This document shows positions 26,976 to 28,088 of a stretch of DNA of 37,430 nucleotides, one piece after another (position 1 is the stretch's first letter; every line of letters starts with the position of its first letter). The stretch covers positions 1 through 37,430 of the IMG/VR virus record IMGVR_UViG_3300038701_000808; one strand, 5' to 3'. Both the position numbers and the translations under genes were made by a program. Source of the DNA: a virus. The notes under the pieces were generated by a model. That model was given only the letters and a program-made list of their open reading frames with translations. It made no database searches and was not told the DNA's origin.

Positions 26976-27004
26976 ATTTTACTCGCGTTTGCCCTGCGTG
27001 TCAA
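26976..27004 (-). promoter_or_regulatory. Sigma70-type promoter for leader element 2 and replication genes
   Basis: On the minus strand TTGACA (26999-27004), a 17-base spacer and TAAAAT (26976-26981), inside the 3' end of the methyltransferase gene. Predicted start 26969, the first base of element 2. It would drive the initiator and DnaB genes separately from the upstream operon. Confidence 0.75.
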
Positions 27005-28088
27005 GGGATTCTGCATCCATAATGCAGCGTCCGACATACTCCGCAACCTGCGGTACTACGGCGTTTCCGAGGCACTTAAGTCTGTCCACCCGGTTGGGAA
27101 CCCCATTAGCCACTCGACCCACGTCGGGTTCAACTGACCACCAGTCACATCCAAGCTGTTGCATAAGCCGTCTCCCGGTGCGTGCTGTCCCCTTTGCGTC
27201 TGACCTTTCCAGTCGCGCGACCGGGGTGTTGGGTACATTTTTCTCTTTTCTTCCTTCCAAACCTGATCGTTGAGTTGATAGTACGGTGTTGAGCTGTTCA
27301 CCCGTTTTGGGCTGCGATAATCCCTGGCCTGTGGTGTCGGCCACATTTTCACTGCCATTGCAAGAGGCGGAGTTGATACCTTCCCGTCTTTCTTTCGCTT
27401 TATCCATGTATCTGGATTTTCGCTTGTGGTTTTGCCAGCTCTCGGCGTCGGCCAAAATTCCTTGTTCTTCGGCTGAACCTGATCTCTCAGTTTGTAATGC
27501 CCGGATTTGTCCTTGTGCATTTTCATAACGCCCCCCTCCCCGTCTGAGGCTGATGGCGTGCGCCACAACGAAGATTCGATATCTTCTGTGGTTGGCTCCG
27601 AAAGCCGCAGCTGGAATATTGAACGTCCCAACGGTGTAGCCCGCCCATTCCAAGTCAGCAAGAACATCGTCGAGCATGGTAGTAATGATTCCAGGAACGT
27701 TCTCACCCACCACCCATCGGGGTTTGAGTTCTTGTATAATTCGTAGATATTCAGGCCAGAGGTTGCGGTCATCATCCTTGCCTCGTCGCTTCCCGGCGAC
27801 ACTGTGAGGTTGGCAAGGGAATCCTCCGGCAATAAGGTCAACTGGTGCGAGTTCATGTTTTCTCCTTTGTGGTGGCTGGTGGTACTCACCCCATTTAACA
27901 CCTTCCGTTGTGACTGGTGCACCACCACAATCTTTTATATCTCGATATTTTGGAACGCCGGGCCAGTGTTTCTCAAGGACCCGAGTGCAGTAATCATCAA
28001 TCTCCACCTACCAGGCGCATTTCATCCCGGCACGCTCAAAACCGAGATCAATACCACCTATACCCGTAAATAGTGATCCAAATTTCAT
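26979..28088 (-). pseudogene. Cytosine-C5 DNA methyltransferase interrupted by amber codon
   Basis: The full frame of 369 codons starts at ATG 28088 (KFGSLFTGIGGIDLGFE, the SAM-binding motif I) and overlaps the upstream stop (ATGA). Codon 27 (28008-28010) is TAG where most relatives have a glutamine-like residue (CAW*VEID). After it the frame is open to 26979 and holds PCQ (about residue 91-93), ENVPG (129-133), RRYRIF (168) and GNAVVP near 341. A product starting at GTG 28007 would lack motif I and be inactive. It also contains the unrelated gene 27056-27856 in another frame. Confidence 0.8.
27056..27856 (-). CDS. Overlapping gene nested within methyltransferase (PTPxARD-type protein)
   Basis: A 266-codon frame, +1 relative to the methyltransferase, wholly inside it. 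Start ATG 27856 has an excellent AAAGGAG ribosome site six bases upstream. The product shows four [WY]xTPxxxD-like motifs (WRTPSASDG, WPTPRAG, WPTPQARDY, YPTPRSRDW) and a C-terminal GGQLNPTWVEWLMGFP segment. I recall proteins with these motifs in other phages, often unnamed or labelled as methyltransferase. It has no stop codons despite lying in the target-recognition region, which argues that it is a real second product. Function unknown. Confidence 0.75.
   Translation of the reverse strand: MNSHQLTLLPEDSLANLTVSPGSDEARMMTATSGLNIYELYKNSNPDGWWVRTFLESLLPCSTMFLLTWNGRATPLGRSIFQLRLSEPTTEDIESSLWRTPSASDGEGGVMKMHKDKSGHYKLRDQVQPKNKEFWPTPRAGKTTSENPDTWIKRKKDGKVSTPPLAMAVKMWPTPQARDYRSPKRVNSSTPYYQLNDQVWKEEKRKMYPTPRSRDWKGQTQRGQHAPGDGLCNSLDVTGGQLNPTWVEWLMGFPTGWTDLSASETP

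Follow-up and report, generated by a model that had tools for sequence, protein, structure and literature searches.

A pair of overlapping genes in a viral genome probably codes for a C5-cytosine DNA methyltransferase made of two subunits, in which one reading frame (frame A) would specify the catalytic chain, alpha, and a gene nested in the +1 frame (frame B) would specify a second chain, beta, carrying target recognition and motif IX. Both frames are coding, and the variable region of the methyltransferase gene is under selection in frame B in relatives of this virus. The window, that is, the whole stretch of DNA analyzed, comprises the 37,430 bases of a virus record, and its genes include those for a portal protein, a DnaB-like helicase, a DnaD-like loader, and an Erf-like protein.

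The nested gene and its host gene

The alpha gene, which codes for the large domain of a C5-cytosine methyltransferase, occupies positions 26979-28088 of the minus strand (ATG at 28088, stop codon at 26979-26981) and spans one in-frame TAG. When this TAG is read as glutamine, the product matches PF00145 (2.3e-44) and phrog_363 (1.7e-76). The PF00145 motifs are then present in order: I (LFTGIGG, 28053-28073), the catalytic motif IV with its PCQ (GGFPCQ, 27810-27827), VI (GENV, 27696-27707), VIII (HRRYRIFVV, 27564-27590), and X (LGNAVVP, 27051-27071). Between motifs VIII and X lies what we call the variable region when it is read in frame A (27141-27563).

The amber codon is codon 27 of alpha (28008-28010), between motif I and the rest of the protein, at a position where CAG (Q) is expected ("...CAW*VEIDDYC"), and it therefore severs motif I from the remainder. 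The alpha reading frame is thus not intact in this virus, while the part past the TAG is. Recoding of TAG in this virus is unlikely, since TAG is the ordinary stop codon of 11 of the 41 window ORFs checked. No near-identical contig in which to check the codon was found with the search pattern used. Barring an assembly error or readthrough, the amber codon probably leaves the enzyme inactive here. Two members of the family, namely the window and contig L006 (near position 2771, codon ~34), have a single early stop in alpha, with the downstream part intact and beta open. The sequence-only reading had proposed two protein-like frames over the region from PCQ to GNAVVP. Both frames are indeed coding there, but the methyltransferase ORF is interrupted at codon 27.

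The beta ORF (27056-27856, minus strand) is supported by ORF calling, homologues, synonymous shuffles, and selection in relatives. It runs from ATG to TAG over 266 codons wholly inside the methyltransferase ORF, in the +1 frame, such that frame B positions 1/2/3 are frame A positions 2/3/1. A Shine-Dalgarno-like AAAGGAG (27862-27868) is located 5 nt ahead of the ATG; upstream of this ATG, frame B stays open to a GTG, which would give a protein of 290 aa. Beta contains four [WY]xTPxxxx motifs at residues 98, 135, 172, and 208 (spacing 37/37/36): WRTPSASD (27542-27565), WPTPRAGK (27431-27454), WPTPQARD (27320-27343), and YPTPRSRD (27212-27235). These are followed by a candidate motif IX, LNPTWVEWLMGFPTGW (residues 242-257; 27086-27133), which was assigned by position and pattern. 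The nested frame, its ribosome-binding site at normal spacing, and the repeated motifs followed by a tail had all been recognized from the letters alone, and they stand as described.

Across the family, a start codon with a Shine-Dalgarno signal is found at the head of beta in 0.55 of the loci, compared to 0.22 in synonymous shuffles. Another such site ~20 codons further on comes close to this score (0.44), which makes the exact start of beta uncertain. A conserved methionine preceded by a Shine-Dalgarno-like sequence was also observed ~25 codons inside beta (ARKMT, residues ~24-30 in the family) and could be an alternative start.

Searches with the nested product returned phrog_1008 (6.8e-36), a family labeled "DNA methyltransferase". 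No Pfam or NCBIfam model, whether for an HNH or for any other known domain, matched it. Homologues of beta were detected by tblastn in 86 phage records, and three scans of IMG/VR found at least 598, at least 336, and at least 593 relatives encoding it; a search of genome contigs added one relative. The same +1 arrangement was present in 213/213 parsable loci of a set found through frame B, and the same A/B pair occurs in phages as distant as mycobacteriophage Bubbles123, Porphyromonas phage 020a, and E. coli phage ST20, where frame B is the annotated gene. Sets found through frame B favor an open frame B, and this bias is removed in a sample of loci picked by methyltransferase motifs I-VIII alone. 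In the 75 loci of this sample with a parsable motif IV, frame B was open past motif VIII in every case (75/75). The mapping of homologues onto methyltransferase genes, which had been suggested as a check of the nested frame, showed that they are abundant and always lie on such genes.

It should be noted that the overlap itself is already annotated. Paenibacillus larvae phages list it as two methyltransferases or as a "g55 internal gene", the latter being the annotation of Shelly gp56. The sequence-only reading pointed to similar PTPxARD proteins in phages, but to no described overlap or function. The arrangement is annotated in Shelly and in many P. larvae phages, and no function or mechanism for it was found. 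In the open-access literature, nothing on a nested C5-methyltransferase subunit was found beyond the mention of split enzymes. Nested beta chains may already have been described elsewhere, for instance in subscription papers.

Coding constraint in both frames

When synonymous codons of frame A were shuffled, a procedure that preserves the A protein and its codon use, 7.1 stops were expected in frame B of the window and none was seen; an open B frame of such length arose in 0/500 shuffles. Over 92 loci, the same procedure gave 5.2 expected B stops versus 0.07 seen. The reverse shuffle, of frame B, led to an expectation of 8.6 stops in frame A of the window (0 seen) and of 6.6 over all loci (0.21 seen). 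The third frame behaves as chance would have it, with 13.8 stops seen versus 13.5 expected.

Selection was estimated from 28 independent close pairs (84-99.3% identity), in which substitutions were classed by their effect in both frames, with bootstrapping over pairs. The values, given as omega, a dN/dS-like ratio, come from relatives and not from the window itself. Outside the overlap, omega_A was 0.12 both upstream and downstream. In the overlap from motif IV to motif VIII, both frames were under constraint, with an omega_A of 0.21 (0.13-0.30) and an omega_B of 0.58 (0.37-0.84), and omega_B fell to 0.20 (0.14-0.34) for changes silent in the other frame. In the variable region, omega_B was 0.17 (0.13-0.22) and omega_A 1.17 (0.84-1.62), with stops in frame A still rare. 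The substitutions in this region were distributed over A codon positions 1/2/3 as 419/94/85; the 419 changes at A position 1 fall on the wobble position of frame B. In the 28 pairs, the fast-evolving codon position flips within ~15 codons past motif VIII and reverts at the stop codon of frame B. With changes silent in both frames as the reference, frame A of the variable region retains some constraint (0.44), so that "free" here means nearly free. The comparison of synonymous variation that had been proposed for this locus thus gave, in the relatives, a reduction within the overlap, and neither this check nor the mapping of homologues refuted the nested gene. Some changes in the close pairs appeared to create B stops; these were multi-base changes or misaligned codons, and the B ORF of the second sequence was still open and of comparable length.

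Distribution of methyltransferase motifs over the two frames

In enzymes of the M.HhaI type, the large domain holds motifs I-VIII and X, and the small domain holds the target-recognition domain (TRD) and motif IX (PMC3404938). Solved C5-methyltransferases in the PDB align by sequence to alpha only up to residue 176-177, at the end of motif VIII. In an AlphaFold model of alpha, most of the motif I-VIII region scored ~90 or more, residues 204-306 scored below 50, and the helix of motif X scored ~96; most of the variable region has a pLDDT below 50. This model superimposes on M.HhaI with a Z score of 20.6 over 217 aligned residues. Alpha alone therefore models as the M.HhaI large domain (motifs I-VIII and X) plus a disordered linker. 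We infer that the alpha variable region is a linker to motif X that is kept stop-free without amino-acid selection in the relatives. Beta modeled poorly on its own (pLDDT 60, pTM 0.29), and a fold search with this low-confidence model gave no credible match, with one weak hit at Z 2.1.

The motif IX pattern LNPxWVEWLMGFP was found in frame B and never in frame A. In the motif I-VIII sample (n=75), it was found in B at 58 loci and in A at 0, and in the set chosen through B it was found in A in 0/213 loci. By this pattern, alpha of the relatives is without a motif IX. The assignment of motif IX to beta is by pattern and position, as profile matches were not significant; neither a beta profile nor one of the IX-X region retrieved a solved methyltransferase from the PDB. 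In two loci (L270 and L086), a second motif IX-like segment was observed in beta (TNPELLEWLMGYQKAFT and TNPEFLEWLMGYQKAFT, respectively), followed by another TP module.

Several relatives distribute these elements differently. In mycobacteriophage Shaka, gp77 ends after motif VIII, and gp76, read in frame B, is composed of TP modules, a motif IX-like segment, and motif X. The end of gp76 shares 38% identity (E 8e-21) with the end of the methyltransferase of Gordonia phage Baddon, a one-chain enzyme with IX and X in frame, where the counterpart of the motif IX candidate is located between motifs VIII and X. Two further loci (L013 and L038) are split like Shaka, with motif X on the small chain in all three. 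Taken together, the Shaka, L013, L038, and Baddon variants indicate that motifs IX and X can occupy either frame. The TP repeats were in the +1 frame in all loci translated and inspected.

The number of modules also varies. Among 147 distinct B proteins, most have 2-4 TP motifs, which lie a median of 34 residues apart. The related loci L103 and L109 differ by the loss of one whole [WP]TP module, bounded by a repeated LWPTP, with both frames kept. In loci L133-L136, which are ~78% identical to L103, beta has 158 residues versus 243, and both frames are open.

Two further features of frame A were observed. In four distinct contigs, the catalytic motif is interrupted by 6 inserted nt that include an in-frame TGA (GGFP-TGA-xCQP), at positions 2973-2995 of L083, 769-791 of L074, 1030-1052 of L086, and 11761-11783 of L088; around it, frame A continues over much of its length, and frame B is open. 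Just before motif IV, an HNH-nuclease-like sequence, CxxC...HHxDYNxPLxVxWxCxxCHxxWH, is present in frame A of L074 (~1-770) and of L086 (upstream of 1030), both of which also carry the TGA insertion.

A probable nested target-recognition subunit and its alternatives

In the arrangement that we favor, frame A would be translated into alpha, comprising the large catalytic domain (motifs I-VIII), a stretch that needs only to stay open, and then motif X. Beta would have a separate ATG, located in the region of motif IV, and would consist of a short N-terminal part, the tandem [WY]xTP modules of ~37 residues as the target-recognition domain, and motif IX, thus forming the small domain. It would then join alpha in trans, giving an enzyme with an M.HhaI-like layout. 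That frame B is constrained ahead of motif VIII, and that its start sites have a Shine-Dalgarno-like sequence, supports the view that beta is made as a separate chain, which would bind alpha and read the target sequence. On balance, we also lean towards a broader proposal, namely that viral C5-methyltransferases of a large clade carry their specificity domain wholly in the second frame as exchangeable [WY]xTP modules, with the catalytic frame acting there as a stop-free linker whose sequence has no meaning. Modules of this kind could be lost or exchanged by recombination, which would change the methylated sequence.

Beta might instead be a real nested protein with another job, such as an inhibitor, a nuclease, an anti-restriction protein, or a toxin. 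No family or fold match names a function for it, and M.BatI, a C5-methyltransferase of a Bacillus prophage with a short TRD, was toxic in E. coli even in a catalytically dead form (PMC8936443). The TRD of M.BatI was described as unusually short, and the gene was cloned from native DNA (PMC8936443). We nevertheless consider a separate job unlikely, given that the modules sit at the exact place of the TRD, where amino-acid selection on frame A is lost, that motif IX is in B and absent from A, and that frame B of the split members continues into motif X. A further alternative is programmed frameshifting, by which one chain would take motifs I-VIII from frame A, the TRD and motif IX from frame B, and motif X again from frame A.

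A double shift would fit the abrupt change of the selected frame at motif VIII and its return near motif X. Such a chain would need two shifts, however, and constraint on frame B begins before motif VIII (omega_B 0.58, with an interval below 1); in the window, moreover, frame B is headed by an ATG with AAAGGAG, all of which makes frameshifting quite improbable. It is scarcely credible that frame B is non-coding and a mere shadow of the conserved methyltransferase frame. Some B motifs, such as GVPNRVDRL and GFPTGWTDL, do result from reading conserved A motifs in the +1 frame, but B is open far beyond chance given the A protein, and the variable-region substitutions favor its wobble position (419 vs 94 and 85). 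For the family, a shadow ORF is refuted by the synonymous shuffles, the selection in the 28 pairs, and the frame switch at motif VIII.

The two-subunit reading has precedents among known enzymes. M.EcoHK31I, which recognizes YGGCCR, is a two-polypeptide C5-methyltransferase whose large chain has motifs I-VIII and X and whose small chain has motif IX; its predicted TRD was assigned to the large chain, the small chain being given motif IX alone (PMC3404938). The alpha chain of the window likewise bears motifs I-VIII and X, and its candidate motif IX is on the small chain by pattern and position, with profiles that match no solved methyltransferase. The location of the TRD differs, as the predicted TRD of M.EcoHK31I is on the large chain, whereas here the nested frame would hold it (omega_A 1.17 and omega_B 0.17 in relatives). 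The beta ORF of M.EcoHK31I is also said to lie inside its alpha gene in a different frame, as Lee, Kam and Shaw reportedly described in 1995. M.AquI, in turn, is split after motif VIII into alpha and beta, and its small chain carries motifs IX-X together with the distal part of the variable region (PMC3404938). Shaka gp77/gp76, L013, and L038, the split members, resemble it, but alpha of the window has motif X, in frame A, and beta lies entirely within the alpha gene.

Among phages, Shelly gp55/gp56 and its P. larvae relatives have the same nested arrangement, with an annotation that, as found, gives no function or mechanism. In the parts of it that were available, a comparison of 48 P. larvae phages only lists both methyltransferases (PMC6070908). 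The ShiLan domain is an HNH concealed in a phage methylase gene, in a different frame (PMC11855218). It is similar in being a second protein in the other frame of such a gene and differs in being a sporadic homing insertion; frame B, by contrast, is constantly present in its gene and does not match an HNH. The multispecific C5-methyltransferases of Bacillus phages have their TRDs in the methyltransferase frame, whereas the repeated modules of the window sit in the nested frame. The likeness to these enzymes is in the tandem target-recognition units, as they carry tandem TRDs (PMC8936443).

The annotation of the overlap and the existence of a two-polypeptide C5-methyltransferase with motif IX on its small chain are thus already known; selection and architecture together now suggest a target-recognition subunit as the function of the nested product. 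If true, this would be a rare case in which both halves of one enzyme come from one DNA stretch, with function mapped frame by frame. It would explain why alpha has no recognizable TRD and why beta homologues are labeled "DNA methyltransferase" or "hypothetical protein", and it would show where the target specificity of these viral enzymes should be sought.
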